Below the pieces are notes generated by a model. It saw only the letters and a program-made list of their open reading frames with translations, made no database searches and had not been told where the DNA came from. The position numbers were made by a program, and so were the translations under genes. Below are positions 1 to 15,122 of a stretch of DNA of 15,122 bases, one piece after another. Every line of letters begins with the position of its first letter. Position 1 is the first letter of the stretch. This stretch comes from Chloroflexota bacterium (GTDB lineage Bacteria > Chloroflexota > Dehalococcoidia > Lucifugimonadales > UBA826), in contig PBDP01000001.1 in assembly GCA_002718095.1 (NCBI GenBank), positions 54,390-69,511 of the forward strand. The letters run 5' to 3'.

Positions 1-113
1 CACTTAGCCCATATCAAAGCAGATTCATTTAATTTTATTTTAGCCCTTATGTTATATTCCCATTATCATGAAACAAATATTAAGTTACAATTGATAGCTA
101 AAATAGTGGATTT

Positions 114-189
114 GCCCCTATAGCTCAGGTGGATAGAGCACGGGTTTCCTAAACCCGGTGCACAGGTTCGAGTCCTGTTAGGGGTACCA
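114..189 (+). tRNA. tRNA-Arg (anticodon CCT)
   Basis: A 76-nt cloverleaf can be folded by eye. The acceptor stem pairs 114-120 with 179-185, the first pair being a G-T wobble. The D arm is GCTC/GAGC, the anticodon stem CGGGT/ACCCG closes a TTCCTAA loop, and the T arm ACAGG/CCTGT holds TTCGAGT. The discriminator base is A186 and CCA (187-189) is encoded in the DNA. Loop bases CCT are the anticodon, which reads the AGG arginine codon. A TAAAAT hexamer at 99-104 could be its -10 element, but no convincing -35 is visible. The opposite-strand permease stop codon starts at the very next base (190), so there is no spacer between the two genes. Confidence 0.95.
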
Positions 190-1137
190 TTAATATCTGA
201 TTCTTGGATCGATATATGCATACAATATATCAATCAATAGAATCCATAAAGTTATAATAATACTGAGAGCAACTATTATGCCAACGATCATATCAGTGTC
301 TCTTGCATAAGTGGCCCTTACTAATTCTAATCCTATTCCGTGAACGTTAAATACTTTTTCGATTACGACTACTCCACTTAAGGTTGTACTAAAGTAAAAT
401 CCAAACATAGTAAGCACTGGTATTAAAGCATTTGGTATCACATGATGGATGATTATTTTAAATTCACTTATTCCTTTTGATCTAGCCGTTCTAACGAAAT
501 CGTCATTTAATACTTCTAGAGTCATGGATCTCATATATCTGATTATTACAGCAGATGCAGACAACCCAACTGAAATTATAGGGAATGCAAGTATAGTTAG
601 ATTTGTTAAAGGATCTGCATATATAGGTTTGTAATGTAATGGAGGAACCCAGTCAAAATAAACAGATGTCGTGTATACAATGATTAGACCGATCCAAAAT
701 GGAGGCATTGCTATATTTACTCCTGAAATTATTCCAATTATTTGATCTGTTAAGCTACCTCGCTTAACAGCAGCTAATACTCCTAATGGAATCGCAATTA
801 ATGCTGACATAATTGTGGATAACAAGGCTAGAGTCGTTGTAGTTTCCAGTCTCTTAGCAACTACTTGTTCTACCTCTACATCACGGAATCTAGAATACCC
901 TAAATCACCTTTTGCAGTAGCAAATAACCATCTGCCATATTGGATAATTAAAGGATCGCTTAATCCAACATCACCTCGAACTTTATCCATTGCTTCTTGT
1001 GTAGCTCCACCCCCAGAATTGAGAGCGGTTACAAAATCACCGGGTATTGCTGAAGGTAACACAAAAAAAGCAAGACTCCCTGTAAATAACACGGTGGGAA
1101 TGACTAGCAGTATGCGTTTTAAAATATAGGCTAAAAT
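190..1137 (-). CDS. Dipeptide/oligopeptide ABC transporter permease (DppB/OppB type)
   Basis: Inner-membrane permease subunit of a peptide- or nickel-type ABC importer; family membership is clear, substrate is not. About six membrane segments are visible. The cytoplasmic EAA loop that docks the ATPase is recognisable from VLNDDFVRTARSKG to HHVIPNAL, and the C-terminus DPRIRY is typical and complete. The first conventional start, GTG at 1092, would cut off the usual basic lead and half of the first membrane helix. In-frame codons upstream encode LAYILKRILLVIPT, a classic DppB N-terminus, and the codon placed for Met is ATT at 1137-1135. AAAGAG lies 7 nt before it. I therefore call an ATT start (315 aa), with an ATG-to-ATT assembly or mutational change as the alternative. 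The gene follows the hydrolase stop by 1 nt. No DppC, ATPase or binding protein is in the window, so it is an orphan here. Confidence 0.9.
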   Translation of the reverse strand: MLAYILKRILLVIPTVLFTGSLAFFVLPSAIPGDFVTALNSGGGATQEAMDKVRGDVGLSDPLIIQYGRWLFATAKGDLGYSRFRDVEVEQVVAKRLETTTTLALLSTIMSALIAIPLGVLAAVKRGSLTDQIIGIISGVNIAMPPFWIGLIIVYTTSVYFDWVPPLHYKPIYADPLTNLTILAFPIISVGLSASAVIIRYMRSMTLEVLNDDFVRTARSKGISEFKIIIHHVIPNALIPVLTMFGFYFSTTLSGVVVIEKVFNVHGIGLELVRATYARDTDMIVGIIVALSIIITLWILLIDILYAYIDPRIRY

Positions 1138-1138
1138 G

Positions 1139-1936
1139 TTAATACTCTTTTATGAAATTCAAGACTTCTTTATTGAAATTCCCGGGATTTTCCATATTCG
1201 ACATGTGCCCAACTCCAGGCAATATAACTTTTTTAGAATTGGGAATATTAGCCTCTAATATATTAGCTACTTCAATAATTTTGTTGCCACGCCTTGTAGT
1301 ATTTTCTAATTCTCCTATAAGTATCAGAGTAGGAGATTTAATATTTTTGAGTATTTCGGGACTAGGAGCTTTATCACTTATAATTTGATCTACTGGATCG
1401 TCATTGAAAAAATGCCATCCCGAATAACTTAATAGCATTTGAGATAGCAAAGAAAATACCTTGGGATGGGCTTGAGCAGATTTGAGGACATCACCTTCTG
1501 CCAAATTTTTCAAGAAATTAGTTAAGCCATTTTTTTGAACTTCCTCTTCCCATAAATGCATATCTAATATTGGAGCTACCATTGAATCTGCTAGTACAAG
1601 CTTATTTACTAATTCAGGGTATCGTAATACAAATTCAGCTGCTATATGCCCTCCTTTCGAAAGACCTAAAACATGAGTACTCGATATTCCCAAATACTCT
1701 AATAAACATTTTAAATCTGTAGCATGTGAATACGGATCTGTGGTAGGTACTGCAGATTTACCAAAACCTCGATTATCATACCTAACTACTTGATATTCTT
1801 TTGAAAATACTTCAAATTGATCATCCCACATTCGTGTATCAGTTCCAAATCCGTTTATTAAAACTAAAGACTTTCCAGTCCCTGATACTTCGTAATAAAG
1901 TGAGGTCCCATTTACGTCGGCTATGTTAGGCCCCAT
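1139..1936 (-). CDS. Alpha/beta hydrolase (3-oxoadipate enol-lactonase-like)
   Basis: A 265-residue single-domain alpha/beta hydrolase, cytoplasmic because no signal peptide is present. The oxyanion region is NGFGT (28-32). YDNRGFGKS (53-61) is typical of the PcaD/BioH-like group. The nucleophile elbow GLSKG puts Ser93 at the catalytic position, and GVGHMSN supplies His244. The acid region reads GELEN (208-212), so Glu211 may replace the more common Asp. Members of this group hydrolyse esters, lactones or C-C bonds; the substrate cannot be named from sequence. The ATG is preceded by AGGAG about 8 nt upstream. It starts 10 nt after the M48 stop and ends 1 nt before the proposed permease start, so it is probably co-transcribed with the chaperone module, although a functional link is not evident. 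Confidence 0.88.
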   Translation of the reverse strand: MGPNIADVNGTSLYYEVSGTGKSLVLINGFGTDTRMWDDQFEVFSKEYQVVRYDNRGFGKSAVPTTDPYSHATDLKCLLEYLGISSTHVLGLSKGGHIAAEFVLRYPELVNKLVLADSMVAPILDMHLWEEEVQKNGLTNFLKNLAEGDVLKSAQAHPKVFSLLSQMLLSYSGWHFFNDDPVDQIISDKAPSPEILKNIKSPTLILIGELENTTRRGNKIIEVANILEANIPNSKKVILPGVGHMSNMENPGNFNKEVLNFIKEY

Positions 1937-1946
1937 TTATATTCTC

Positions 1947-3047
1947 CTATAATATATTAGTTATATCTTTCAACGGTATTTCCAATTGAGCACACCAATT
2001 TGTTAAGAGTCTTTCAGTCTTTTTCTTAGAATGAACTGACATTTTATAAAAGGAATCTTGCATCTTATTTATTAATATATTGTTTACTGATTCCTTACTT
2101 CTATTTTTTAAAATATAGGTAATTTTTTTTGCGTCATCACCGCACTCTTCAAATAAAAATTTTTGATCTTTTTTTGTTAAATCCCCATCTTGTACTAATG
2201 CATATGTGAAAATTATTAATTTTAAAAAATCTTTTTCTATATTGAAAATTTCTTCTTCTCTTTTGTCTATAAATTCTAATGTATCTTTACGGATTTGGTC
2301 ATTTATGGAATTTATATGGGTATTAATTTCAGTGTTCGGTTTCACTAAATTACCCGACATATCAAATAGGTTTACGGTTGATAGTAAAACTAATGCTCTA
2401 GCTCTTAGTGGTAATGGGGGGTGAGTAGATTGAGTATTTTGAGACGATTGCATCTGGCTGCCTAGATAGTTGGTCTGGTCAATAAAGGGTCTTATATCAA
2501 GATTTAGATATTCATCTTCTAAACCTGACGCTATCTTCATCATTGCTCTTACAGACTCTTCAAGGGAATTAGTGCATATGTATCCAATTCTATCTGCTGA
2601 TATTTCCATGTCGCGTATTTTTTTTGATGAATCATAATCAAAATTATTTTGTGATAAATGAGTTGACTCAGAATGATTAAAAATAGCATGTCCTAACTCA
2701 TGTCCTAAAAGGAATCGTAATTCTATAAGATTTAAAGTTTTGACCAAACTTGATGAGATACCGATTAAAATTTCATCTTTTGAATTGCTGATAGAAAAAG
2801 CATTGTAATCTTGCTTTGAATAAATATAAGCATCTATATTTTTCAGGTTCAAATTTAAAATTTTTGCACATATTTCTATTTGAGTATATACGAGAGGGAC
2901 AGTTGTTTCTGTCACACGTAAAGAATTTGACAATAAACTTTGACGTGTTTCTTGCAACTTGTGAAATAAAATTCGATCGTCATCTAATATTGTGTCAGAT
3001 TCTGATTCTAGTCTTATAAAATTTAAATATTTATCGTTAACAACCAT
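1947..3047 (-). CDS. M48-like zinc metalloprotease with C-terminal TerB-like region
   Basis: A 366-residue soluble protease of the M48 (HtpX/Ste24-related) gluzincin class. The zinc motif HELGH is at 116-120, with His116, Glu117 and His120. The downstream EISAD (148-152) supplies the third ligand Glu148, and THPPLPLRARAL (208-219) is the M48 substrate-cleft motif. YNAFSI at 81-86 matches the conserved NAF element before the active site. HtpX-type membrane helices are absent. After about residue 268 there is an alpha-helical region with IIFTYALVQDGDLTKKD (278-294), resembling the acidic DG-E/D-L core of TerB-like domains; this assignment is moderate. The ATG lies inside the end of the upstream TerB gene (11-nt overlap, no strong Shine-Dalgarno), indicating translational coupling. 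Likely role: proteolysis of clients presented by the neighbouring Hsp70 system (inference). Confidence 0.85.
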   Translation of the reverse strand: MVVNDKYLNFIRLESESDTILDDDRILFHKLQETRQSLLSNSLRVTETTVPLVYTQIEICAKILNLNLKNIDAYIYSKQDYNAFSISNSKDEILIGISSSLVKTLNLIELRFLLGHELGHAIFNHSESTHLSQNNFDYDSSKKIRDMEISADRIGYICTNSLEESVRAMMKIASGLEDEYLNLDIRPFIDQTNYLGSQMQSSQNTQSTHPPLPLRARALVLLSTVNLFDMSGNLVKPNTEINTHINSINDQIRKDTLEFIDKREEEIFNIEKDFLKLIIFTYALVQDGDLTKKDQKFLFEECGDDAKKITYILKNRSKESVNNILINKMQDSFYKMSVHSKKKTERLLTNWCAQLEIPLKDITNIL

Positions 3048-4254
3048 TATTTATTCTAGATTCTGAGATTAAGTCAATCATATTTTGAGCATATACTTTT
3101 TCCTCACCTTCAAGTTGCTCTATGCGTGAATTCCATTGCAAAAATTCATTCGTCAAATGCTCACATACCTCCTCTTTATTCATAGAAGATGTTATTCCCA
3201 AAATTTCATTAGTGTCTTGAGAGTTTGTACTTATTGTTTCATCATTTATTATTTTTAGGTTTTTAAGATTTTGTATTTCAGATATTGAAACCCCTAGTTT
3301 GGATCCTAGATCATTAATAAATGCTAATTCGTCTCGGTGGGCTTCCTCATCTGAAGTCATTATATCTATTAATAACTCTATAGTTTCGAAATAATCTTTT
3401 TTAGTCCCTTTTATACGTAATGTTTCTATTTTTTCATTTATATTTGAATTGTCTGTTTTAGCTTCTTGGTAAGCTTCTGCCATTGAAGTATTCATTCGAG
3501 TTTTTATTTCTTCTTTTTCCTCACCAGTGAAATCACCTACATATTTTTCAATCCAACTTTTTATTAGTGCTCCTTCTTTTTTGTGAAGTTCGCCATCTAT
3601 TAAAGCTATGTGTACAGCAATTTTAAGAGCCATTTCTTGAGCAATTATCGAGTCTTCATATGCTTCTTCGTATCCGGATTCGGAGAATTTAAATGTGACA
3701 TGTTCTGTAGTACGTTGTTTCGGTGTATCTAATGATGCTAGAACATTTATTGTAGATATAGGTTCGCCAATCAATATTTTGTCCACATTGGTTGCTGATA
3801 GGAATCTGATTTTGGCAAGTAGTTGTATTTGACCTGATTTAGCTGGAATTAGTGTCTGTTCAAACGCGAATCCTATTGGTGTCCAATCAGGAAAATATGA
3901 ACCAAAATTGATTTTATTTAAATTTTGGCTAGATAAAAAAAATCTTGAATAGTGTTCTTGTTGCCAATCAAGAATAGACATTATGCATTTCATGTCTCGA
4001 TAGTCAAACAACGATATAGCAACAGCAATATTATTCTTTCCGTAAACGGTCGGAGGAAAACTACCTCGCATTTGGAATTCAAATATCTGTTGAATACTAC
4101 CATCATCAAGTGTGAATGGTTTTTTTATAATTCTGAATTTAGGCGGATTCTTTTTGACAAGTTTGTTTGTTTCTTCGTGGGCACCAAATTTTTTGGCCTG
4201 ATTGACTACAAACCAAATTGCCCCTACTACTATGATGATGATGATGATTTCCAT
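3037..4254 (-). CDS. Membrane-anchored TerB-domain protein with possible degenerate J-like C-terminus
   Basis: A 405-residue protein in four parts. An N-terminal membrane anchor (about 2-18) begins with six consecutive Ile and is followed by KK, predicting N-out/C-in topology. Residues 40-195 form a predicted beta-rich region I do not recognise. Residues 200-335 are TerB-like: HIALIDGELHKKE (215-227) carries the acidic DGE core, and IDIMTSDEEAHRDELAFI (297-314) a second acidic helix. Residues 348-400 (LGITSSMNKEEV, FLQWNSRIEQ, MIDLISESR) resemble J-domain helices I-III in layout but lack the HPD tripeptide. TerB next to a J domain is known in DjlA. The gene starts 10 nt after the Hsp70 stop and overlaps the M48 gene by 11 nt. 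It could be the J-type or adaptor subunit for the adjacent Hsp70 (inference). Confidence 0.8.
   Translation of the reverse strand: MEIIIIIIVVGAIWFVVNQAKKFGAHEETNKLVKKNPPKFRIIKKPFTLDDGSIQQIFEFQMRGSFPPTVYGKNNIAVAISLFDYRDMKCIMSILDWQQEHYSRFFLSSQNLNKINFGSYFPDWTPIGFAFEQTLIPAKSGQIQLLAKIRFLSATNVDKILIGEPISTINVLASLDTPKQRTTEHVTFKFSESGYEEAYEDSIIAQEMALKIAVHIALIDGELHKKEGALIKSWIEKYVGDFTGEEKEEIKTRMNTSMAEAYQEAKTDNSNINEKIETLRIKGTKKDYFETIELLIDIMTSDEEAHRDELAFINDLGSKLGVSISEIQNLKNLKIINDETISTNSQDTNEILGITSSMNKEEVCEHLTNEFLQWNSRIEQLEGEEKVYAQNMIDLISESRINNGC
4232..4248. repeat. Trinucleotide microsatellite (ATG)5 in the TerB protein anchor
   Basis: On the plus strand five ATG units run in tandem, followed by AT. Read on the minus coding strand these are five ATC codons which, with the following ATA, make the six-isoleucine run right after Met-Glu. 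Slippage by whole units would change the length of the membrane segment without shifting the frame. Confidence 0.85.
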
Positions 4255-4264
4255 GGTTATCTAG

Positions 4265-5779
4265 TTACTCCACAAAAAACTCTTCTATTTCTAATTTTTT
4301 TTCTTTTGTTACTTCATATTGTGGAGTAATGTTTACAGATTGCTCTGAACTGCTAGGCTTATGCAAAAAATGACAATCTACCGTACCGTCTTCAAGCATT
4401 TGGAATGTGAAATCTATAGGTTCCCCTTGAGGAAGTCCCGGGGGGAGTGGGAAGTCATCTTCCCACAATATATCTACCCATTTCACATCTTTTTCTGGCA
4501 TAGAACTTTGAATCACTTGTATCTTACTATTCGTTTGATTCTCGTATATTGTTGTATATTGTTCAGTTATGGGTTCAGATGGGATTGGTGTACCTTTATC
4601 AATGATATATGTTGGCATCAGATCTAATTGATTAGTTGTTTCATTAAATGACACAGCGATAACGCCAAAATACATATTTGAAACTTCTTTAAAATTTACT
4701 CTTTCTAATAATTCTGATTGCGCAGAATTTAAAATTGTTTTATCAGATTTTAAACCTGAATATAATGCAGCGCCTAAGGCTACCACTTCATCAGGATTAT
4801 CTACTGTTATGGGGTGTTTACCAAATACCTTTAATATGCTTTCTTTTACTGCAGGTATTCTAGTTGATCCACCAACAAGTAGAATGTCTAACAAGTCATC
4901 ATGTTTTTTTAATAAAGTTGAACATATCATCTCAGATTGTGCCAGTAAACCAGAAACTGAACTTTCAAATTCGGACCTTGTTACGGTTAACGTTACGGGC
5001 GGACCTTCTTCTCTTCGTATGATTACTTTTCTTTCCTCATTTATACTTAAACTTTTTTTCAATTCTTCAAATAGAGAACTAGCTCTAAAATTTTGGATAG
5101 AATAATTGATTTCAGAGTCTGTTTCTGATTGGAATTTTTTTTCTACGAGGTCTTGTAATTTTTCGTCAAAGTCTTTGCCGCCCAATTTGCTAATACCCTC
5201 TGATTCTAATATTTCGACTTCTGTTCCTGACACAGATACTATACTTATATCCCATGTACCACCTCCAAAGTCATATACAGCATATTTTCCTGGCTTCAAA
5301 TTACTTTTCATAGCGAAGTAAAATGCAGCAGCGGAAGGTTCATTTATTACTTGTGATACTGGTAGATCGGCTAATTTCCCTGATGCTAGTGTTGCTTCAC
5401 GTCTGTCTACTCCAAAATTTGCGGGAACTGTTATGACAGCCTGGCTTATGTTAGGGTCGAAATCGGTACTGATTTTTTTTAATACTAATGTACTTAAAGT
5501 TTCAGGTGTTATTTTTTTTGAATTTATTTCTAGATAGACTGTATCTGAACCTATATCTCTTTTGTAGTCGCGAAATATGCTAAACCCCTGGTCGGACAAT
5601 CTTAAAGCCTCTTTACCTATAGATGTTTGATCGGTTTCTGGGTCTATATATACTGCGGATGGTGTTAAGTTATCTCCTTCAGGGGTACGAACTATTTGTG
5701 GGTCACCAACTTCATCTAAATATGCTAAGACCGTATTAGTTGTTCCTAAATCTACCCCTATAATCTTTGGATTTTGCAT
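4265..5779 (-). CDS. Hsp70-family chaperone lacking the helical lid
   Basis: A 504-residue Hsp70 relative; DnaK has about 640. The ATPase domain is complete by motif: phosphate loop DLGTTNT (10-16), catalytic-type Lys73 in DYKRDIG, VPANFGVDRREAT (118-130), EPSAAAFYF (147-155), second phosphate loop DFGGGTWDIS (170-179), GGKDFD (200-205) and adenosine motif LVGGSTRIPAV (301-311). The usual hydrophobic DVLLLDV linker is replaced by EVSNMYFGV (365-373). What follows resembles a shortened substrate-binding beta sandwich (to about 480), with no room for the alpha-helical lid. Such a protein may bind clients loosely or depend on partners. TAGGAGA 5 nt before the ATG is a strong ribosome binding site. 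The GrpE-like gene ends 8 nt upstream and the TerB gene starts 10 nt downstream. No DnaJ with an HPD motif is in the window. Confidence 0.92.
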   Translation of the reverse strand: MQNPKIIGVDLGTTNTVLAYLDEVGDPQIVRTPEGDNLTPSAVYIDPETDQTSIGKEALRLSDQGFSIFRDYKRDIGSDTVYLEINSKKITPETLSTLVLKKISTDFDPNISQAVITVPANFGVDRREATLASGKLADLPVSQVINEPSAAAFYFAMKSNLKPGKYAVYDFGGGTWDISIVSVSGTEVEILESEGISKLGGKDFDEKLQDLVEKKFQSETDSEINYSIQNFRASSLFEELKKSLSINEERKVIIRREEGPPVTLTVTRSEFESSVSGLLAQSEMICSTLLKKHDDLLDILLVGGSTRIPAVKESILKVFGKHPITVDNPDEVVALGAALYSGLKSDKTILNSAQSELLERVNFKEVSNMYFGVIAVSFNETTNQLDLMPTYIIDKGTPIPSEPITEQYTTIYENQTNSKIQVIQSSMPEKDVKWVDILWEDDFPLPPGLPQGEPIDFTFQMLEDGTVDCHFLHKPSSSEQSVNITPQYEVTKEKKLEIEEFFVE

Positions 5780-5787
5780 GGTGTCTC

Positions 5788-6420
5788 CTACTCACTAGTT
5801 TCACTGTATACAATTACTTCTGCTGGTTTAACTATATTCTTACCAGATTCTTTTTCAGGTAATATAGTTCTCCATCCTGATTTTTTTATTTCTGATATTG
5901 TCCCTATTTGTGAATCGCTTTTTGTATATTCTTTCCCAACCATTTCAACTCCTAAAGCAGTCTTATATTCGGAACCAATGGGAGGATTAAATTCTTCTAT
6001 GCCTGCGTCATGCAAACCTTGTAATAAATGTTGTTGGATTGCATAAATATATCCATTTATATCGTCAGATGTATCCTTCTCAATTGCCTTAATTGAGTCG
6101 GTTGCATATATTGTTGCATTTATAAATTCCAAACTAGCATCTTTAAACTTTGAAAAATTATAACCGTTGACATACTCTTTTAAAGTTCTTTCTATTTGAT
6201 GTTTTTCTTCTCTAAGGGTTGACTGAGTCTCTAATATTTTTGTTAGATTTTGGATCTGTATTTCGACATTTTTTATTAATGATGCTATTTCATGAGAATC
6301 ATTTTTGATTTCACTAGAAACAGGATGTTTACTGAGAAAATATTGAGATGCAATTATAATCGATAATAATATTATGAAATAGAAGATACATATTAATAAT
6401 AATAGTGATACATTATCCAT
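5788..6420 (-). CDS. Membrane-anchored GrpE-like nucleotide exchange factor
   Basis: A 210-residue protein. Residues 5-27 are one strongly hydrophobic helix preceded by Asp and followed by Lys-His, predicting C-terminus in the cytoplasm. Residues 40-135 look helical with coiled-coil character (NVEIQIQNLTKILETQSTLR), as in the GrpE stalk. Residues 126-206 match the GrpE head in layout: QQHLLQGLHDAGIEEF, then IGSEY, GTISEIKKSGWR and KPAEVIVY, the last two corresponding to the conserved G-x-V-x-x-x-x-x-x-GY and RPAxVxV elements. GrpE releases ADP from Hsp70, and the Hsp70 gene follows after 8 nt. A transmembrane anchor is not typical of GrpE. AAGG about 11 nt before the ATG is a modest ribosome binding site. 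This is the first gene of the leftward operon. GrpE similarity is weak in places, so a divergent relative is also possible. Confidence 0.75.
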   Translation of the reverse strand: MDNVSLLLLICIFYFIILLSIIIASQYFLSKHPVSSEIKNDSHEIASLIKNVEIQIQNLTKILETQSTLREEKHQIERTLKEYVNGYNFSKFKDASLEFINATIYATDSIKAIEKDTSDDINGYIYAIQQHLLQGLHDAGIEEFNPPIGSEYKTALGVEMVGKEYTKSDSQIGTISEIKKSGWRTILPEKESGKNIVKPAEVIVYSETSE

Positions 6421-6448
6421 AAATATCTAACCTTGATGATGTGGGTTC

Positions 6449-6476
6449 ATAATACACTAGTTTTATTGATTATAAA
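6449..6476 (-). promoter_or_regulatory. Candidate sigma70-type promoter for the leftward operon
   Basis: On the minus strand TTTATA (6476-6471) and TATTAT (6454-6449) are separated by 16 nt, giving four of six and five of six consensus matches. Transcription would start near 6442, about 20 nt before the GrpE-like ATG. The 75-bp divergent region must also hold the promoter of the rightward SDR; for that direction I see only weak combinations. Confidence 0.4.
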
Positions 6477-6495
6477 AATAATTAAGGATTTAAAT

Positions 6496-7314
6496 ATGGA
6501 TTTGAATTTGAATGGAAAAAAAGCTTTTGTAGCTGGTGGTAGTAGAGGTATGGGAAAAGCTATTGCAAAAGTGCTTGTTGAAGAAGGGGTTGATGTTGCT
6601 ATTGCTGCTAGAGATATTGAACGGTTAGAGAACGCTGCAAATGATATAAGAAAAAATACAAGTACAAAGATAGTACCTATAAGTTTTGATACGGGAGATA
6701 AAGAAAGTGTAGACTCTGCTATTAAAAATGCTCACTCAGAATTAGGTGGAATTGATATATTAATTAACTCAGCAGCTATACCTAATGGTTCCCCTGCTGC
6801 AGTTCGCCCTATCGATTCATTGGATGAAAATGCTTTAATAGGAGACTTCAATATTAAATATGTTGGTGCGCTCAGGTGTGCACGAGCTGTTCTTCCTTAT
6901 ATGCAGCAACAAGGTTGGGGCAAAATAGTTAATATCAGTGGTATTAATGCTAGAAAAGCGGGTAATTTAACTGGAGGTGCAAGGAATGTAGCTCTTATGC
7001 ATCTGACGAGATCATTAGCAATGCAATTTGGGAGATTTGGGATTAATGTTAATTGTATATATCCAGGTGCCACTAGGACGGAAAGAACTCCTGAAGCTAT
7101 GTTGAAAAGAGCAAAAGTATTAGGGATATCAGCTGAAGAATTAGAAAAACAAGATTTTGCACCTGATTCCCCGTTAGGTAATTTTATTTGTCGACTGGTA
7201 GATGCTAAAGAAGTTGCTGATGTTGCAGTTTTTTTATGTTCAGACAAATCCTCTTCTATATCAGGAGAAGCTATAGCAACAGATGGCGGAGCAGGTTCTT
7301 TTATTTCTTATTAA
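6496..7314 (+). CDS. Classical SDR-family protein lacking the YxxxK catalytic pair
   Basis: A 272-residue Rossmann-fold oxidoreductase of the FabG-like SDR family. The cofactor loop is AGGSRGMG (13-20), NSAA (91-94) replaces NNAG, and Ser148 (VNISG) sits at the catalytic Ser position. The segment that should carry YxxxK reads GGARNVALMHLTRSLA (160-175), so the expected Tyr is Gly160 and the expected Lys is Asn164. PGATRTE (190-196) is the usual nicotinamide-side loop. Either the protein uses an altered mechanism or it is a non-reductase member. I start it at ATG 6496, preceded by AAGGA with 7-nt spacing, rather than the in-frame ATG at 6433, because MDLNLNGKKAFVAGG is the normal family N-terminus. 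The next gene follows after 12 nt, so the two are probably co-transcribed. Confidence 0.88.
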   Translation: MDLNLNGKKAFVAGGSRGMGKAIAKVLVEEGVDVAIAARDIERLENAANDIRKNTSTKIVPISFDTGDKESVDSAIKNAHSELGGIDILINSAAIPNGSPAAVRPIDSLDENALIGDFNIKYVGALRCARAVLPYMQQQGWGKIVNISGINARKAGNLTGGARNVALMHLTRSLAMQFGRFGINVNCIYPGATRTERTPEAMLKRAKVLGISAEELEKQDFAPDSPLGNFICRLVDAKEVADVAVFLCSDKSSSISGEAIATDGGAGSFISY

Positions 7315-7326
7315 CAAGGAGAAACA

Positions 7327-8238
7327 ATGGATAAAATATTAGTTACTGGTGGTGTAGGCTATTTAGGTCAGTGGGTTGTAAAAGAATTAGAAAAACACTA
7401 TAGCGTTGTAGTCGCAGATTTAAATTTACCCAACTATGAGACTACTCCTGGTACGATTTATGAAAAAATTGATCTTAAAAATAGTTTAGAACTTGATACA
7501 TTACTAAATGGAATTCATTCGATTGTCCATTTAGCAGCAATTCCACGACCAGTTGGCTATAGAGCAGAAAATGTCTTTGAAAACAACATGGTCACTACAT
7601 TTAATATAGTAGAAGCAGCCATTAGGTCTAATGTAAAAAAAATTGTATTTAGTAGTAGCGGATCAGCTTTAGGCTTTGCGTATAGTTTTACTAATATGAT
7701 TCCGGATTATATGCCTATAGATGAAGAGCATCCTTTAAAACCACAAGATTCATATGGGTTATCAAAAGCATTTGGTGAAGATATTCTTGAGGCTGCAACT
7801 ATTAGAAGTGGTATCTCTACGATCTCATTGCGCCCTACTACTGTTATAGTTCCGTCAGATTATGGAGAACGTGTCCTTCAGATGCTTAGTACTGAGTATG
7901 AAACTGAAAATAGAATGGATGTGCCAGATAATATAGAAGGATTAAATGGTGGAAATGAAACTCAGACGGCTATATTAGCTTATGTAGATGCTAGGGATTA
8001 TGCTCAAGGAGTTTTGTTAGCTTTACAAAATACGGATATTAAACATGACCGATTTTTTATTAGCGCTGATGATGCTATGAGTAGAGAACCTATATCACAA
8101 GCTTTCCCAAAAATATTTCCAGGGTCAGAAAAAGTAGCCTCAAAACTTACTGGTATCGAGAGCCCTATATCATCAGAAAAAGCAAAACGTATTTTGGGTT
8201 ATAAACCTAAATATACTTGGAGAGATTTTTTAGATTAA
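7327..8238 (+). CDS. NAD-dependent epimerase/dehydratase (extended SDR)
   Basis: A 303-residue extended SDR. TGGVGYLG (7-14) is the nucleotide loop, and Asp31 in VADLN (29-33) favours NAD over NADP. VHLAAIPRP (67-75) and FSSSGSALGF (108-117) lead to the active site, where YGLSK gives Tyr143 and Lys147 intact. The family acts on nucleotide sugars, sugars or related alcohols as epimerases, dehydratases or dehydrogenases; the substrate is not readable from sequence. AAGGAG (7316-7321) lies 5 nt before the ATG. Unlike the preceding SDR its catalytic residues are complete, so in this pair it may do the redox chemistry. The downstream 101 bp is AT-rich with no strong terminator. Confidence 0.9.
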   Translation: MDKILVTGGVGYLGQWVVKELEKHYSVVVADLNLPNYETTPGTIYEKIDLKNSLELDTLLNGIHSIVHLAAIPRPVGYRAENVFENNMVTTFNIVEAAIRSNVKKIVFSSSGSALGFAYSFTNMIPDYMPIDEEHPLKPQDSYGLSKAFGEDILEAATIRSGISTISLRPTTVIVPSDYGERVLQMLSTEYETENRMDVPDNIEGLNGGNETQTAILAYVDARDYAQGVLLALQNTDIKHDRFFISADDAMSREPISQAFPKIFPGSEKVASKLTGIESPISSEKAKRILGYKPKYTWRDFLD

Positions 8239-8339
8239 TAATTCCAAATTTTGATAATAATAATTTAATAAAATTCTGTATTTATTTACTTTATATGTGT
8301 AAGAATATTAATGTGAAATTTTATTTGAGGATTTAATTA

Positions 8340-9467
8340 ATGTTAAAAAATGATTCTGAATTACCTCCTAGGATTCTCCTAGGCCCTGGACCAAGTATGG
8401 CAAACGCTAGGGTTCTTGATGCCATGTCTCATAGCATGCTTGGTTATTTAGATCCTGATTTTATGGTTGTATTAGATGAAATTTCGGATTTGATTGCGCG
8501 ATTATATAAGACAAAGAATTTGGCAATGGCTATTCCAGGTACAGGCTCTGCAGGAATGGAAGCTGGATTTTCTAGTCTCCTAGAACCAGGGGATAAAGTT
8601 GTGATGTGTCTGTATGGACATTTTTGTGAAAGAATGTTTGAAATGGCTACTAGAGTAGGAGCAAATGTTGTTCCAATTAGGGCTCAGTGGGGAGAACCGT
8701 TTCCAGAAGAATTATTAGAGAATGAATTAAAAAATCATGCTGATGTTAAATTAGTAACAGCAATACACGGAGAAACTTCTACTGGCATTTGTCAACCACT
8801 AGAGAATATTTCGAGTATAACAAAAGAGCATGGAGCTATGTTAATGGTCGATGCGGTTACTACTTTAGGTGGAACAGACTTAGATGTTGATAAATTATCT
8901 ATTGATTACGCATACTCAGCATCCCAAAAATGTTTGGGTGCTCCTCCAGGATTGTCTCCTGTTGTTGTTAGTGATGAAGCTATGGCCACTATTCTGTCTA
9001 GAAAAACTAAGCCGTATTCATGGTATTTAGACCTTAGTTTACTTGCAAATTACTGGAATGAAAGACGAATATACCATCATACAACTCCTGTTTCGATGAT
9101 GTTTGGTATAAGAGAAGCTCTTAACATAATATTTGAAGAAGGATTGGAAAATAGATTTGCGAGGCATGAAAAAAATGCAGAGATTTTAAGGTCTGGTCTT
9201 AAGTCTATGCAATTTGATTTATTAGGATCAGGTAAATCGAGATTAAATCAAATAACTCCAGTTATTATTCCACCAGGTGTGGATGGAAATGAAGTTGCTG
9301 ATCAGTTATTAAGAGAATTTAATATTGAGATAGGAAAGGGGCTAGGTGATTTTGCGGGTAAAATATGGAGAATAGGTTTGATGGGAGAATCTAGCCAAAC
9401 AGAATATGTTTTTGCATTCTTGTCTGCATTGGAGTCTGTATTAATTCATCAGGAATTCCCCTTGTAA
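8340..9467 (+). CDS. Class V PLP aminotransferase (alanine/serine-glyoxylate type)
   Basis: A 375-residue fold-type I PLP enzyme of the alanine-glyoxylate/serine-glyoxylate aminotransferase group. LLGPGPS (13-19) is the family N-terminal signature. GTGSAG (67-72) binds the cofactor phosphate, Asp171 in VDAVTTLGG contacts the pyridine nitrogen, and Lys197 in SASQKCLG forms the Schiff base. Arg345 in WRIGLMG is the likely substrate-carboxylate ligand. Length matches the family. Typical reactions transfer an amino group to glyoxylate or pyruvate; the exact donor is uncertain. GAGGA (8327-8331) lies 8 nt before the ATG. It is separated from the SDR pair by 101 bp and from the sulfatases by a probable terminator, so it may be its own transcript or the end of the SDR operon. 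Confidence 0.92.
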   Translation: MLKNDSELPPRILLGPGPSMANARVLDAMSHSMLGYLDPDFMVVLDEISDLIARLYKTKNLAMAIPGTGSAGMEAGFSSLLEPGDKVVMCLYGHFCERMFEMATRVGANVVPIRAQWGEPFPEELLENELKNHADVKLVTAIHGETSTGICQPLENISSITKEHGAMLMVDAVTTLGGTDLDVDKLSIDYAYSASQKCLGAPPGLSPVVVSDEAMATILSRKTKPYSWYLDLSLLANYWNERRIYHHTTPVSMMFGIREALNIIFEEGLENRFARHEKNAEILRSGLKSMQFDLLGSGKSRLNQITPVIIPPGVDGNEVADQLLREFNIEIGKGLGDFAGKIWRIGLMGESSQTEYVFAFLSALESVLIHQEFPL

Positions 9468-9473
9468 TACTTC

Positions 9474-9504
9474 TCATTTTACTGAAAAGTGACAGTTTTT
9501 TTTT
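9474..9504 (+). terminator. Probable intrinsic terminator after the aminotransferase
   Basis: TCATTTT (9474-9480) pairs with AAAAGTGA (9485-9492) with one bulged G around an ACTG loop, and nine T residues follow at 9496-9504. The stem is AT-rich and short, so termination may be partial. Confidence 0.5.
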
Positions 9505-9505
9505 C

Positions 9506-9536
9506 TTGGTGTAAAGTGGTAACCTGACTTTATAAA
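9506..9536 (+). promoter_or_regulatory. Weak candidate promoter for the sulfatase cluster
   Basis: TTGGTG (9506-9511) and TATAAA (9531-9536) are 19 nt apart, a longer than ideal spacer, just downstream of the probable terminator and 24 nt before the first sulfatase ATG. AGGAG (9549-9553) is the ribosome binding site with 7-nt spacing. Confidence 0.3.
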
Positions 9537-9560
9537 CGATATATTCTCAGGAGATTACTG

Positions 9561-11207
9561 ATGGCTGATAATTCTAAACGACCTAATATTGTCTTTTTAT
9601 TTGCGGATGATTGGGGTAGATACGCAAGCGCATATAGGAAATTTGGTTCTCCTAACTCTATCAATCATTTAATTGAAACTCCAAATTTTGATCGTATAGC
9701 ATCAGAAGGAGCTTTGTTTACTAACGCTCATGTTCCAGCTCCAACCTGTACCCCTTGTAGAAGTTCTATACTTTCAGGTACTTATTTTTGGGAAACTGGG
9801 TTAGGGGCAATATTAGAAGGTGCGTATTGGGATGAGTCTATACCTTCTTATCCTTTGATGTTAGAAGAAAAAGGCTATCATATTGGGCATACATATAAAG
9901 TTTGGTCTCCGGGTAAATCGGAGAATGCTCCATATGGAGGAGCTAGAACAAAATATGAATCTGCTGGGAATGAATGGCGGAAATTCTCACAATATGCTAC
10001 ATATTGGATTTCTGAATGGGGAGTGGAAGGAGCTAAAGAAAAACTTTACGATGAAACTCGGAATAATTTCAAATCATTTTTAGATGATAGGGCAGGTGAT
10101 GACCCGTTTTGTTATTGGTGGGGTCCTGTAAATACTCATAGACCATGGCACAAGGGTTCAGGTAAAGAATTGTGGGGTATTAATCCGGATGATTTAGAAG
10201 GTAAGATGCCAGAATTCGTGCCAGATGTTCCTGAAGTTAGAGAAGATTTTGCTGATTATCTTGGAGAAATATTAGCTGTCGATGCTGGCGCAGGAGTTAT
10301 TTTAGATGAGCTTGAGAAAGCTGGAGAATTAGATAATACACTTGTTGTTATGAGTGGAGATCATGGAATTCCCGGATTACCACGAGCAAAATGTAATTTA
10401 TATGATTTTGGAAGCCAGGTAGCATTAGCTGCTCGATGGCCAGGTAAAATTAAACCAGGCAAAGTTGTTAATGAACTTGTTAACCTTATGAGTTGGGGGC
10501 CAACATTTCTTGAAGCTGCAGGAGAAAATCCAACAGATAATATGGTCGATAGCATTATGCCTTTACTTACATCTGATGATGCTGGTATTGAAGAAGGCGG
10601 GCGAGTGATATTTGGAAGAGAAAGGCATGTTGCCTTTGCTAGGCAAGGTGGCTTGCCATATCCATCTAGAGGGATTAGAACTAAGGATTATCTATATATT
10701 CGTAATTTTGAACCTGATAGATATCCAATTGGAGAATTATTTGGATTGGAATCTAAAGATTCAGATCCTGAAGATTTGGATGATTTATTAATTACAGCTT
10801 CTGTTTGGAATCGAAGAAGAGATCTAAAGAATGCATTATCTGATATGGATACAGGTCCATCTAAGGCTTGGGTAATAGGGAACAGGAACCAGGAATTCTA
10901 TAGAGAAAGGTTTGATTTAGCTTTTAATAAAAGACCAGCATTAGAACTCTATGATGTTAAAAAAGATCCTAATCATATGACGAATCTTGCTGAAGATCCT
11001 AAATATAAAGAAATAATGGATAAGTTAAATGAAGAACTTTTTTCAGTCTTAGAAGAGCGAAATGACCCTAGGGTTATTGAAGGTGATGATTGTAAATTTG
11101 AGCATCAACCTTATGCAGGTATGCCTGATCCTGAATGGTATACAAGTTCTGCGATGAATGGTGAAAATTGGGATCCATATCCAGCTCAAGCTAAATATAC
11201 GACTTAA
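9561..11207 (+). CDS. Type I sulfatase, first of three tandem paralogs
   Basis: A 548-residue formylglycine-dependent sulfatase of the alkaline-phosphatase superfamily, closest by motif memory to the heparan N-sulfatase/arylsulfatase-like group. FADDWG places metal ligands Asp16 and Asp17. CTPCR (63-67) is the CxPxR motif whose Cys63 becomes formylglycine. Lys113 (YKVW), His193 (NTHRPW), GDHG with Asp267 and His268, and Lys277 (PRAKCNLYD) complete the site. The protein begins directly with RPNIVFLFADD and has no signal peptide, so it should act in the cytoplasm. It hydrolyses a sulfate ester or sulfamate; the substrate is unknown. No formylglycine-generating enzyme or anSME is in the window. 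It is the most divergent of the three copies, for instance ARTKYESAG where the others have QRTKYEPLG. Confidence 0.93.
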   Translation: MADNSKRPNIVFLFADDWGRYASAYRKFGSPNSINHLIETPNFDRIASEGALFTNAHVPAPTCTPCRSSILSGTYFWETGLGAILEGAYWDESIPSYPLMLEEKGYHIGHTYKVWSPGKSENAPYGGARTKYESAGNEWRKFSQYATYWISEWGVEGAKEKLYDETRNNFKSFLDDRAGDDPFCYWWGPVNTHRPWHKGSGKELWGINPDDLEGKMPEFVPDVPEVREDFADYLGEILAVDAGAGVILDELEKAGELDNTLVVMSGDHGIPGLPRAKCNLYDFGSQVALAARWPGKIKPGKVVNELVNLMSWGPTFLEAAGENPTDNMVDSIMPLLTSDDAGIEEGGRVIFGRERHVAFARQGGLPYPSRGIRTKDYLYIRNFEPDRYPIGELFGLESKDSDPEDLDDLLITASVWNRRRDLKNALSDMDTGPSKAWVIGNRNQEFYRERFDLAFNKRPALELYDVKKDPNHMTNLAEDPKYKEIMDKLNEELFSVLEERNDPRVIEGDDCKFEHQPYAGMPDPEWYTSSAMNGENWDPYPAQAKYTT

Positions 11208-11233
11208 AATATTATTAGATTTGAGAAATAATA

Positions 11234-12856
11234 ATGGCATATTCTAAACGTCCAAATATTGTTTTTTTATTTGCAGACGATTGGGGTAGATATGCTAGTG
11301 CGTATAGAGAATTTGGGGATTTGAATTCCATAAACCATGTTATAGAAACCCCAAATTTTGATCGTATAGCATCTGAAGGAGCTATATTTACTAATGCCCA
11401 TGTTCCAGCTCCTTCATGTACTCCTTGCCGTAGTTCCATACTTTCGGGAACCTATTTTTGGGAGACAGGTTTGGGGGCCATACTAGAAGGTTCTTATTGG
11501 GATGATTCAATCCCTACATATCCCTTAATGTTAGAAAAAAAGGGATATCACATAGGTTATACATATAAAGTTTGGTCTCCCGGGAAAACAGAAAATGCTC
11601 CTTATGGTGGACAACGCACAAAATATGAACCTTTAGGAAATAAATGGAAAGAATTTTCTCAGGAAGTCACACAAAGAGTTCCTGAAATGGGAATTGACTC
11701 AGCTAAACAAGTATTATTTGATGAGACTCGAGATAATTTCAAATCATTTCTGGGTGATAGATCAGTCGATAGCCCATTTTGTTACTGGTGGGGACCTGTT
11801 AATACTCATAGGTCTTGGCAAAAAGGTTCGGGTAAAGAATTATGGGGATTAGATCCTGATGACTTAAAAGGACGTATGCCAGATTTCCTTCCTGATGTTC
11901 ACGATATAAGAGAAGATTTCAATGATTATTTAGGTGAAGTATTAGCAGTTGACCATGGCGTTGGAATTATTTTAGATGAATTAGAAAAAGCTGGTGAATT
12001 AGATAATACTTTAATTGTAATAAGTGGAGATCATGGAATCCCTGGTATGCCACGAGCAAAATGCAATTTATACGATATTGGAACTCAAGTAACGATGGCT
12101 GCCCGTTGGCCCGGTAAAATAAAACCAGGAAAAATTGTGAATGAATTTGTTAATTTGATGAGCCTTGGTCCTACATTTCTTGAAGCAGCAGGGGAAGAAC
12201 CCTTAGACAATATGGTTGATAGTATTATGCCACTATTTATTTCAGAAGATGAAGGTAAAGATGATTCTGGATACGTTGTAACTGGTAGAGAACGACATTC
12301 AACATTTGCCAGGACAAAAGGACTACCTTATCCGTCACGAGCTATTAGGACAAAAGATTTTTTGTATATCTATAATTTTGCTCCTGATAGGTGGCCTATT
12401 GGAGCACCGAATGGGTTTGAAGATCCAGAATTTTTAACTGACCCAAGTGAAATTGAAGATTTGTTAGCAGCAGGATTCCCAGGAAGAAAAGTTAGTGAAT
12501 CTTTTGCTGATATCGATAATGGTCCTACAAAAGTATGGATGTTAGCTAATAGAGATAAAGTGAATGTTCGACCAAAATTTGATTTAACATTTGGAAAAAG
12601 ACCTGCAAAGGAATTATACGACCTTAGAATTGATCCACATCATATGAATAATCTTGCTTCACTTCCTGATTATAATGATATTTTGAATAAACTACATGAA
12701 AAACTTTTTACAGTTTTAGAAGAGCGAAATGATCCTAGGGTTATTGAGGGTGCGGATTGTAAATTTGATAAATATCCTTATGCGGGCATGCCTGATCTTG
12801 ATTGGTTTAACGAAGTTGGAAATGATCGTGTAGTTCCTCCTCCTATTCCTTTTTAA
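11234..12856 (+). CDS. Type I sulfatase, second tandem paralog
   Basis: A 540-residue paralog with the full motif set: FADDWG (13-18), formylglycine Cys62 in CTPCR, YKVW, NTHRSW, GDHG and PRAKCNLYD. No signal peptide. It is closer to the third copy than to the first (shared EVTQRVPEMG and RMPDFLPDVHD segments). Differences concentrate around residues 395-440 and in the C-terminal tail, which ends in a proline-rich VVPPPIPF. The gene follows the first sulfatase by 26 nt, with only a weak GAG-type ribosome binding site, so co-translation or shared transcription is likely. Substrate unknown; the copies may handle related but distinct sulfated compounds (inference). Confidence 0.93.
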   Translation: MAYSKRPNIVFLFADDWGRYASAYREFGDLNSINHVIETPNFDRIASEGAIFTNAHVPAPSCTPCRSSILSGTYFWETGLGAILEGSYWDDSIPTYPLMLEKKGYHIGYTYKVWSPGKTENAPYGGQRTKYEPLGNKWKEFSQEVTQRVPEMGIDSAKQVLFDETRDNFKSFLGDRSVDSPFCYWWGPVNTHRSWQKGSGKELWGLDPDDLKGRMPDFLPDVHDIREDFNDYLGEVLAVDHGVGIILDELEKAGELDNTLIVISGDHGIPGMPRAKCNLYDIGTQVTMAARWPGKIKPGKIVNEFVNLMSLGPTFLEAAGEEPLDNMVDSIMPLFISEDEGKDDSGYVVTGRERHSTFARTKGLPYPSRAIRTKDFLYIYNFAPDRWPIGAPNGFEDPEFLTDPSEIEDLLAAGFPGRKVSESFADIDNGPTKVWMLANRDKVNVRPKFDLTFGKRPAKELYDLRIDPHHMNNLASLPDYNDILNKLHEKLFTVLEERNDPRVIEGADCKFDKYPYAGMPDLDWFNEVGNDRVVPPPIPF

Positions 12857-12864
12857 GTTATAGT

Positions 12865-12905
12865 GTAGAATCCTCATAAATAGTTTCTAATTCTACGACG
12901 AGGAT
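12865..12905 (+). promoter_or_regulatory. Intercistronic leader with two alternative hairpins before sulfatase 3
   Basis: GTAGAAT (12865-12871) is perfectly complementary to ATTCTAC (12890-12896). Overlapping it, ATCCTC (12870-12875) is perfectly complementary to GAGGAT (12900-12905), which contains the ribosome binding site of the third sulfatase. The pairings share bases 12870-12871, so they cannot form together: one leaves the site open, the other covers it. This may be a translation switch or chance. Confidence 0.35.
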
Positions 12906-12910
12906 AAATT

Positions 12911-14542
12911 ATGATAGATTCAAAACGTCCAAACATCGTTTTTTTATTTGCAGACGATTGGGGCAGGTATGCAAGTGCATATAGGATATTTGAAGGGTCT
13001 GATTCAATAAATCAATTGATAGAAACTCCAAATTTTGATCGAATAGCCACAGAAGGTGCTATTTTCACTAATGCTCATGTTCCTGCTCCAACTTGTACAC
13101 CATGCAGGAGCTCGATTCTTTCAGGAACTTATTTTTGGGAGACAGGATTGGGAGCAATATTAGATGGAGCGTATTGGGATGATTCTATTCCGACGTATCC
13201 TTTAATGTTGGAAGAAAAGGGATATCATATTGGTTATACTTATAAAGTTTGGTCTCCTGGAAAATCTGAAAATGCACCTTATGGAGGGCAACGCACTAAG
13301 TATGAACCTTTAGGAAATAAGTGGAAAAGATTCTCGCAAGAAGTTACTCAAAGAGTTCCTGAAATGGGAGTTGATTCAGCTAAGCAAGTTCTATTTGATG
13401 AGACCAGAGAAAGTATTAAGGCTTTTTTAGATGACAAATCAGAAGATCAACCATTTTGTTACTGGTGGGGTCCTGTTAATACTCATAGAGAATGGCAAAG
13501 AGGTTCCGGTAAAAAATTGTGGGGACTAGACCCTGATGACTTAAAAGGGCGTATGCCAGATTTCCTTCCTGATGTTCATGATGTAAGAGAAGATTTCAAT
13601 GATTATTTGGGTGAAGTATTAGCAGTTGATTATGGTGCTGGAATCATTTTAGATGAATTGGAAAAAGCCGGTGAATTAGAGAATACTTTAGTAGTTATAA
13701 GCGGAGATCACGGTATTCCAGGTGTTCCTCGAAGTAAATGTAATTTATACGATATTGGAACACAAGTAGCTATGGCTGCCCGTTGGCCCGGTAAAATAAA
13801 ACCGGGAAAGGTTGTGAATGAATTTGTTAATTTGATGAGACTTGGGCCAACATTTCTTGAAGCTGCTGGTGAAGATCCTTTGGAGAATATGGTTGATAGT
13901 ATTATGCCTTTACTGACTTCAGAGAATGAAGGTAATGATGATTCTGGGTATGTTGTTACAGGACGAGAAAGACATGTAATGTATGCACGTACGGGGGGGT
14001 TGCCATATCCTTGTCGTTCAATTAGGGATAAAGATTATTTGTATATTTATAACTTTGCTCCAGACAGATGGCCAGCCGGTAATCCACATGGGTTTGATAG
14101 CTACGATTCTTCCAATGACGACCCTGATATGGTTATTGAATTAGTTAATTCATCATATGATCGTTCACTGAGCGATAGGAATCCTTTTATAGATGTTGAT
14201 CCTAGTCCTACAAAACATTGGATAGTTGTTAATAGAAATCTAGAAGACGTTAGACCAAAGTTTGATTTAGCATTTGCTAAGCGGCCATTTATGGAATTGT
14301 ATGATATTAACTCGGATCCAGATAATATGAATAATCTTGCATCTGATCCTAAATATAAAGATATTGTTGATAAATTACATAAAAAACTCTTTTCAGTTTT
14401 GGCAGATAGAGATGATCCAAGAGTAACCGAAAAAGATGATTGTAAATTTGATAAATATCCTTATGCAGGATTAGCTGATGACGACTGGTATGACGCTCCG
14501 GCTAACGATAAAATCAATAACACTCGCCCTACCCCGTATTAG
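12911..14542 (+). CDS. Type I sulfatase, third tandem paralog
   Basis: A 543-residue paralog with all catalytic motifs: FADDWG (13-18), formylglycine Cys62 in CTPCR, YKVW, NTHREW, GDHG, and PRSKCNLYD with Ser in place of the Ala found in the other two. No signal peptide. GAGGA (12900-12904) with 6-nt spacing precedes the ATG, inside a leader that can fold two ways. Several nucleotide blocks are identical or nearly so to the second copy including synonymous sites, while the 395-440 region (SYDSSNDDPD) and the tail (NNTRPTPY) are divergent. The gene converges with the NHL-repeat gene, leaving 13 nt and no visible terminator. Confidence 0.93.
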   Translation: MIDSKRPNIVFLFADDWGRYASAYRIFEGSDSINQLIETPNFDRIATEGAIFTNAHVPAPTCTPCRSSILSGTYFWETGLGAILDGAYWDDSIPTYPLMLEEKGYHIGYTYKVWSPGKSENAPYGGQRTKYEPLGNKWKRFSQEVTQRVPEMGVDSAKQVLFDETRESIKAFLDDKSEDQPFCYWWGPVNTHREWQRGSGKKLWGLDPDDLKGRMPDFLPDVHDVREDFNDYLGEVLAVDYGAGIILDELEKAGELENTLVVISGDHGIPGVPRSKCNLYDIGTQVAMAARWPGKIKPGKVVNEFVNLMRLGPTFLEAAGEDPLENMVDSIMPLLTSENEGNDDSGYVVTGRERHVMYARTGGLPYPCRSIRDKDYLYIYNFAPDRWPAGNPHGFDSYDSSNDDPDMVIELVNSSYDRSLSDRNPFIDVDPSPTKHWIVVNRNLEDVRPKFDLAFAKRPFMELYDINSDPDNMNNLASDPKYKDIVDKLHKKLFSVLADRDDPRVTEKDDCKFDKYPYAGLADDDWYDAPANDKINNTRPTPY

Positions 14543-14555
14543 AATTACAACAAAA

Positions 14556-15122
14556 TTATATATTAAATACTTGAAGTCTATGTCGGTTACATTCGAGTAT
14601 ATATAATTTTCCGTCTGGTCCTATGTTTAGTGATGTAGGTCCCCAAAAATATTCTTCAATGTGAGAAGAAATTTCGTGTCTGTCATTCATATTTGAGAAA
14701 GGGATATCTTCTATATGTAGGTTTGCAGTAGCTCTTGTTTGGGCTTCCTCTACATTTACTGAAAAGAAATCTTTGGCCCATCCGGACAACTCTGATTCTC
14801 CTAAGTTCATTTCAAGAAAATCTCCAGAATTACTAAAAACTTGAATTCTTTCATTTCCCCAATCAGCAACATGCACATTACCTGATTTGTCAACTACAAC
14901 ATCTGCAGGTTTTAGCAATTCCCCTTCATTAAATCCGGATTTTCCATATAGTGATAATAAATTTCCGTTTTTATCATAAGAACAAACTCGGTCATTGCCC
15001 CAATCAGCAACATAAATATTAGAATCAGGGCCTATGCTGAGGCGCCAAGGTAATTTCAATCCATCTTTTTCTTTGCTTAGACCGATAGTTTGCAGATATT
15101 TCCCATCATCTGTAAAAACTTT
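14556..15122 (-). CDS. NHL-repeat beta-propeller protein, N-terminal part missing (window edge)
   Basis: The C-terminal 188 residues of a longer protein; the frame stays open to the right edge, so the TTG at 15059 is not taken as the start. The visible part holds NHL-type repeats of the form IYVADWGNDRVCSYDKNGN and VHVADWGNERIQVFSNSGD, each with the NxxxVADWGN-RI/VQ-F core, and a further blade near the C-terminus (LYILECNRHRLQVFN). Such propellers bind proteins or ligands, or act as lyases in the PAL family; the role here is unknown. An insert rich in acidic residues (about 100-145 of the visible part) separates the last two blades. Oriented toward the sulfatases with a 13-nt gap; a shared function is not shown. 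Confidence 0.85.
   Translation of the reverse strand, partial: KVFTDDGKYLQTIGLSKEKDGLKLPWRLSIGPDSNIYVADWGNDRVCSYDKNGNLLSLYGKSGFNEGELLKPADVVVDKSGNVHVADWGNERIQVFSNSGDFLEMNLGESELSGWAKDFFSVNVEEAQTRATANLHIEDIPFSNMNDRHEISSHIEEYFWGPTSLNIGPDGKLYILECNRHRLQVFNI

Follow-up and report, generated by a model that had tools for sequence, protein, structure and literature searches.

What do the products of a compact Hsp70 gene cluster in a Chloroflexota genome do, and which of its genes belong together? The cluster lies on the minus strand of a 15,122-nucleotide stretch of contig PBDP01000001.1 (the whole stretch analyzed is here referred to as the window) and comprises genes for a GrpE-like protein, an Hsp70, a TerB protein, and an M48 metallopeptidase. 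A preliminary description made from the sequence had read these four genes as one cassette. The data presented here suggest that three of them, spanning positions 3037 to 6420, likely encode a dedicated, membrane-tethered Hsp70 machine that is anchored via both of its helper proteins at the inner membrane face and whose role is probably protein quality control at this surface.

The first gene of this trio (positions 5788 to 6420) encodes a GrpE-like factor of 210 amino acids and is followed after 8 nucleotides by the gene for a 504-amino-acid Hsp70 (positions 4265 to 5779), which has a nucleotide-binding domain and a β substrate-binding subdomain and lacks the α-helical lid. After a further 10 nucleotides comes the gene for a DjlA-like TerB protein of 405 amino acids with a J-like tail (positions 3037 to 4254), which shares an 11-nucleotide overlap with the M48 gene. 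The adjacency, gaps, and overlap described previously for the four minus-strand genes therefore agree with the measured coordinates and spacing of the open reading frames (ORFs). Kyte-Doolittle hydropathy analysis located transmembrane segments at the N termini of the GrpE-like protein (maximum of 3.27) and the TerB protein (maximum of 2.26) and none in the Hsp70 or the M48 protein. Since positively charged residues follow each of the transmembrane segments, the soluble parts of both proteins would be expected to face the cytosol.

The trio was also found outside the window's phylum, where one order was surveyed in depth together with small samples. A scan of genome contigs, steered by the Hsp70 motifs INEPSAAA and GGGTWD[IV]S with alignments that included short made-up variant rows, yielded 80 Hsp70s with 27 to 35% identity; their neighborhoods contained no M48, TerB, or GrpE-like relative as judged by phmmer, and their genomes served as the entry to other phyla. 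In a search of Planctomycetota, 1 of 226 genomes weakly matched the J-like tail and led to a locus (L201) encoding, on one strand, a transmembrane-anchored GrpE-like protein (1.3e-13 to that of the window), a lidless Hsp70 of 516 amino acids (9.1e-82, 265 bits), and a transmembrane-anchored TerB/J-like protein (2.5e-7). With a profile built from the TerB/J-like proteins of the window and L201, such a protein was detected in 98 of 161 genomes (61%) of a single order, which was placed in Planctomycetota on the basis of its seed genome (Pirellulaceae, L060). Sixty further regions were fetched and tabulated together with L201. All three genes were found at 47 of the 60 loci that contained any member, and at each of these 47 they lie on one strand and run GrpE-Hsp70-TerB, the gaps between them having medians of 28 and 18 nucleotides; ORF starts and gaps are those given by a simple gene caller. 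Several of the incomplete loci ended at a contig edge or had an Hsp70 gene masked by an antisense ORF in this gene caller. Clustering of the ORFs revealed the trio proteins as the sole set that the loci share; they occur at 56, 54, and 52 loci, and the next family occurs at 20. The preliminary description had staked its reading on homologues occurring together and on the GrpE and TerB assignments; it came through this check because the trio is kept as a unit in another phylum, linked at 47 planctomycete loci, and because the TerB assignment holds and the GrpE assignment probably does, as described below.

The GrpE-like protein of the window matches the Pfam GrpE model at 1.4e-5 over model positions 13 to 163 of 165, and 26 of 34 family members match at an E value of ≤0.01. 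A transmembrane anchor was predicted from hydropathy in 53 of 54 planctomycete relatives. The earlier identification of a membrane-anchored GrpE-like factor is probably correct. The Hsp70 belongs to the Hsp70 superfamily by its Pfam match (2.7e-69), and, as previously noted, it is lidless: the chain ends just past the β substrate-binding subdomain in the window protein and in its relatives (most of ∼516 amino acids), the alignment of window and planctomycete sequences is collinear up to the final residues, and the α-helical lid of canonical DnaK is absent from all of them. The residues D8, T11, K70, R71, R151, N170, E171, D194, T199, and D201 (DnaK numbering) are invariant in the window Hsp70 and 30 of 30 relatives. 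In DnaK, Arg167 contacts the Asp of the J-domain His-Pro-Asp (HPD) motif. This position is Arg in eight of eight DnaK and HscC sequences, Gln in the window protein, and Gly or Ala in all 30 relatives, and the interdomain linker VLLLD has become VNFKE in the window, with one Leu and one Asp retained in the relatives. The window Hsp70 thus lacks both the Arg167 and the hydrophobic linker that serve J domains in canonical DnaK. In a maximum-likelihood tree that also took in DnaK, phage, HscC-like, and plasmid Hsp70s, it clusters with 13 planctomycete trio Hsp70s (bootstrap support of 100, approximate likelihood ratio [SH-aLRT] support of 97). This placement is well supported, but the terminal branch is long (2.6) and the sequence has diverged. 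The sister of the trio clade (97/94) is a 780-amino-acid Hsp70 from a Pirellulaceae genome (L060, positions 5327 to 7669), which has a long C-terminal extension and is also on a long branch.

The third protein was described previously as a membrane-anchored TerB protein with a possible J-like tail, and its anchor and TerB domain can be assigned with some detail. Pfam TerB matches the window protein at 1.2e-7 (32.5 bits, with a cutoff of 24.4) and 29 of 41 family members, NCBIfam DjlA matches the same stretch at 1.9e-4, and hydropathy predicts a transmembrane anchor in 41 of 56 planctomycete relatives. An AlphaFold2 model from 41 sequences reached a predicted local distance difference test (pLDDT) score of 83.5, compared with a poor 44 for an earlier model from two sequences. 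It contains a transmembrane helix (residues 2 to 22), a β domain that is partly of low confidence (residues ∼39 to 190), the TerB helices (residues 195 to 337, mostly >90), and a tail of three helices (residues 348 to 351, 360 to 378, and 384 to 402). Comparison with PDB structures (VIA-align) matched the TerB part to 2ou3, a tellurite resistance protein from Nostoc (Z score of 10.4), and to 2h5n (PG1108; Z score of 10.3), both of which stand about 4 Z units above the other matches listed. Matches to 14-3-3 proteins across residues 322 to 404 (Z score of ∼6) reflect ordinary helical likeness, and the absence of J domains among the PDB matches listed bears neither way on the J assignment. Against a J-domain profile, the tail scored 22.7 in HHalign, with 30 column shuffles reaching 16.0 at most. 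Its strongest signature is W-N-x-R in predicted helix II, of which W374 and R377 are invariant in the alignment. The window tail lacks the HPD motif, including the final Asp; among 47 relatives with a readable motif, HPD is present in the loop after helix II in 16 and the final Asp in 40. As this HPD sits about five residues beyond the canonical position, it may or may not be homologous to the J-domain HPD.

The domain assignments, transmembrane anchors, gene order, Hsp70 clade, and residue losses are shown by sequence analysis or structure prediction; from these, we infer that the three proteins form a physical complex that functions in quality control. In such a machine, the soluble Hsp70 would bind and hydrolyze ATP, the membrane-anchored GrpE-like protein would reset it via nucleotide exchange, and the membrane-anchored TerB/J-like protein would recruit it and present clients or couple it to the membrane. 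Given the degeneracy of both the Arg167 position of the Hsp70 and the HPD motif of its partner, docking of the J-like domain probably involves an altered contact, and this domain may recruit the Hsp70 more than it strongly stimulates ATP hydrolysis. As the Hsp70 has no lid, its hold on clients would be expected to be fast, brief, and weak, which would fit catching or remodeling of proteins at the membrane and not refolding. A further-reaching proposal, put forward only tentatively, is that the trio constitutes a class of its own among bacterial Hsp70 machines, in which both cochaperones act as tethers, the HPD-Arg167 trigger has been swapped for a contact that includes the conserved W-N-x-R of the J-like helix II, and TerB serves as a client or membrane sensor.

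Several observations weigh against the membrane-tethered machine. The window GrpE-like protein scores 25.2 bits, which is 0.6 below the Pfam cutoff of 25.8. It shares only 17 to 24% identity with the planctomycete GrpE-like proteins, and the corresponding values for the TerB protein are 14 to 21%. The likeness of the tail to J domains is weak (HHalign probability of 29% at the above score), and the Pfam DnaJ model matches no member of the TerB/J-like family. In addition, the window represents a single genome on long branches. Finally, a lidless Hsp70 might have a nonchaperone role, as has been proposed for the Hsp70s of CoCoNuT systems (PMC11090510).

The question of whether the M48 protease is part of the machine can be addressed through its conservation. 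The M48 gene (positions 1947 to 3047) encodes a 366-amino-acid protein that belongs to family M48 by its Pfam match (2e-16, 60.8 bits, with a cutoff of 20.3) and by its HELGH (residues 116 to 120) and EISAD (residue 148) motifs. It has no transmembrane segment (Kyte-Doolittle maximum of 1.24), and the best HtpX model scores 28.7 bits, with a cutoff of 245, so that assignment to the membrane M48 protease HtpX was rejected. The TerB-like tail ascribed to it previously was likewise not borne out, as no Pfam match was obtained and the profile scores fell inside the range of shuffled controls. A four-part machine, in which the trio hands unfolded clients to the protease, was the core of the preliminary description: the M48 gene is on the same strand as the TerB gene and overlaps it, its motifs are intact, and a soluble protease could meet a cytosolic machine. 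However, none of the 60 planctomycete loci contains an M48 relative near the trio, within the window's phylum the closest M48 relatives sit in other contexts, and the tail is not TerB by profile, so that we consider this arrangement unlikely; the protease is possibly a genuine fourth part in the window's lineage only. Because the planctomycete regions have no M48 relative, the conserved unit is the three genes for the GrpE-like protein, Hsp70, and TerB protein, and the M48 gene and the hydrolase gene that follows it are local. As a lineage-specific addition, the M48 protein may degrade released clients, or it may be a passenger. Its closest soluble relative (genome G092; L137, positions 3604 to 8250) adjoins two large proteins, one of which resembles a dynamin-like GTPase on inspection by eye, and L138 (genome G083) may have a similar context. 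The hydrolase gene (positions 1139 to 1936), which did not feature in the preliminary description, encodes an α/β hydrolase (Pfam Abhydrolase_1, 2.7e-25). It lies on the same strand, 10 nucleotides beyond the M48 gene, has its own AGGAG ribosome-binding site, and is probably a downstream passenger on the M48/trio transcript. Elsewhere in the window (positions 9561 to 14542) are three tandem sulfatase-like genes for proteins of about 540 amino acids each, apparently recent duplicates.

It is also conceivable, though quite improbable in our judgment, that the Hsp70 is degenerate and acts as a sensor or scaffold with no chaperone function. The missing lid, the loss of R167, the partial loss of the hydrophobic linker, and the degenerate HPD of the partner would all be in line with this, but none of the tested catalytic residues varies among 31 sequences, and 47 of 47 complete loci encode a GrpE-like partner, which together argue for an active nucleotide cycle.

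That the trio is a chaperone unit serving not general quality control but a single machine of the envelope (type II secretion or type IV pili, for example) seems less plausible still. A gene for a GspE/PilB-like ATPase, identified by eye, is located directly upstream of the GrpE-like gene and on the same strand at 14 of the planctomycete loci inspected (among them L238, L258, L262, L263, L270, L279, L282, L285 to L287, L289, and L290), but the neighbors differ at most loci, and secretion and pilus genes are absent near the window trio.

Lastly, an anti-phage or Ter-type stress-defense cassette spread by horizontal transfer is very unlikely: occurrence in the window's phylum is sporadic and some other Hsp70 genes lie near defense or mobile genes, but no PADLOC model matches the Hsp70, GrpE-like, or TerB protein, those plasmid Hsp70s are not members of the trio clade, and the trio loci of the planctomycete order have no recurrent defense neighbors. 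Presence of the trio in 61% of this order with varied flanks fits a permanent cellular function better. The M48 protein matches PADLOC capP weakly (4.4e-4), and this was the only PADLOC match. Of the two roles originally offered, a dedicated membrane-surface machine thus fits the trio kept in another phylum, whereas the link to defense or tellurite has gained no positive evidence.

The Hsp70 genes near defense or mobile genes merit a description in their own right. On a Haliscomenobacter plasmid (L017, positions 4366 to 13950), genes for CFI-box, coiled-coil, Hsp70, kinase-AAA fusion, and TerB proteins lie in a row beside the BREX genes brxL and pglZ, so that Hsp70 and TerB are associated here too, but in the setting of defense. 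On an Aeromonas caviae plasmid (L018, positions 1 to 14648), an Hsp70 gene followed by genes for an AAA ATPase and a peptidoglycan-binding protein is located directly downstream of Tn7-like transposition genes and is probably their cargo. A 1,158-amino-acid protein encoded on a Halomicrobium plasmid (L019, positions 6593 to 10069) is annotated as GrpE and looks like a fusion of Hsp70 and a protein kinase (DIKPGN motif). Searches with tblastn gave no match for the TerB and M48 proteins in plasmids or for the TerB protein in phages, and the plasmid and phage Hsp70 matches were mainly DnaK and HscA, with a few other Hsp70 types. Seven scans of viral contigs did not reveal the trio; five contained no relative at all, and two contained only distant Hsp70s (28 to 33% identity). 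Within the window's phylum, a search of 400 genomes recovered the TerB protein from its own genome alone, the one exception being a tail-like match in G399. The TerB-family loci of this phylum have no detectable Hsp70 or M48 neighbor. The G399 protein (L002, positions 1500 to 2127) resembles the TerB/J-like tail with 41% identity over about 100 amino acids, adjoins an HD-domain dGTPase-like gene, and borders 48 kb of masked sequence; a second Hsp70 was not found in the unmasked part of this genome. A 24,253-amino-acid ORF in G399 was rejected as an artifact of masked N bases.

The preliminary description did not recognize the arrangement as characterized, and we likewise found no description of it in the literature searched, but comparison of the membrane-tethered Hsp70 machine with known systems is instructive. 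E. coli DjlA is a transmembrane-anchored TerB-J cochaperone of DnaK. The window TerB protein shares with it a single N-terminal transmembrane segment, a TerB domain, and, less certainly, a C-terminal J-like domain. It differs in having a β domain between the first two, in the loss of HPD (also in most relatives), and in that an Hsp70 and a GrpE-like protein of its own are encoded alongside it. A similar TerB/J-like protein may also occur in proteobacteria. Like DnaK-DnaJ-GrpE, the trio unites one Hsp70, one J-type helper, and one GrpE-type helper and retains the catalytic residues; unlike that system, both of its helpers are membrane anchored and its Hsp70 has neither lid nor R167, and the host genome (∼1.4 Mb) holds a separate grpE-dnaK pair elsewhere, as well as an HtpX-type M48 relative. 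Ssz1 of the eukaryotic ribosome-associated complex is an atypical Hsp70 whose substrate-binding domain is reduced and which works with a J-protein; it is ribosome bound and has no GrpE-type partner, and its likeness to the trio is drawn from description. The TerB fold also occurs in Ter stress systems and in Shango-type TerB proteins, whereas no TerC, TerD, TelA, or helicase partner was seen at the window or recurred at the trio loci. The closest described parallel is HscC, a non-DnaK Hsp70 that works with membrane-inserted DjlC, the tail-anchored J-type partners DjlB and DjlC being encoded nearby (PMC8215388); the trio Hsp70 belongs to a different clade, and the trio in addition comprises a GrpE-like protein and contains a TerB domain. 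In several phyla, we also observed HscC-like Hsp70 genes (L051, positions 6748 to 9710; L116, positions 3998 to 6678) paired with a gene for a protein with an N-terminal J-like region (LNIKPT/LGIAPT...AIKKAYAA).

The contact between HPD and Arg167 is seen as the trigger that J-proteins share for switching Hsp70s. An Hsp70 family without Arg167 whose J-like partner has an eroding HPD would therefore offer a direct test of alternative Hsp70 switching. The trio furthermore provides a case for asking what a lidless Hsp70 fixed at the membrane does, and it places TerB, a domain of unclear function, in a defined chaperone setting that is open to testing. Common to the window genome and many planctomycetes, the trio resembles a second, membrane-bound Hsp70 machine of the cell.

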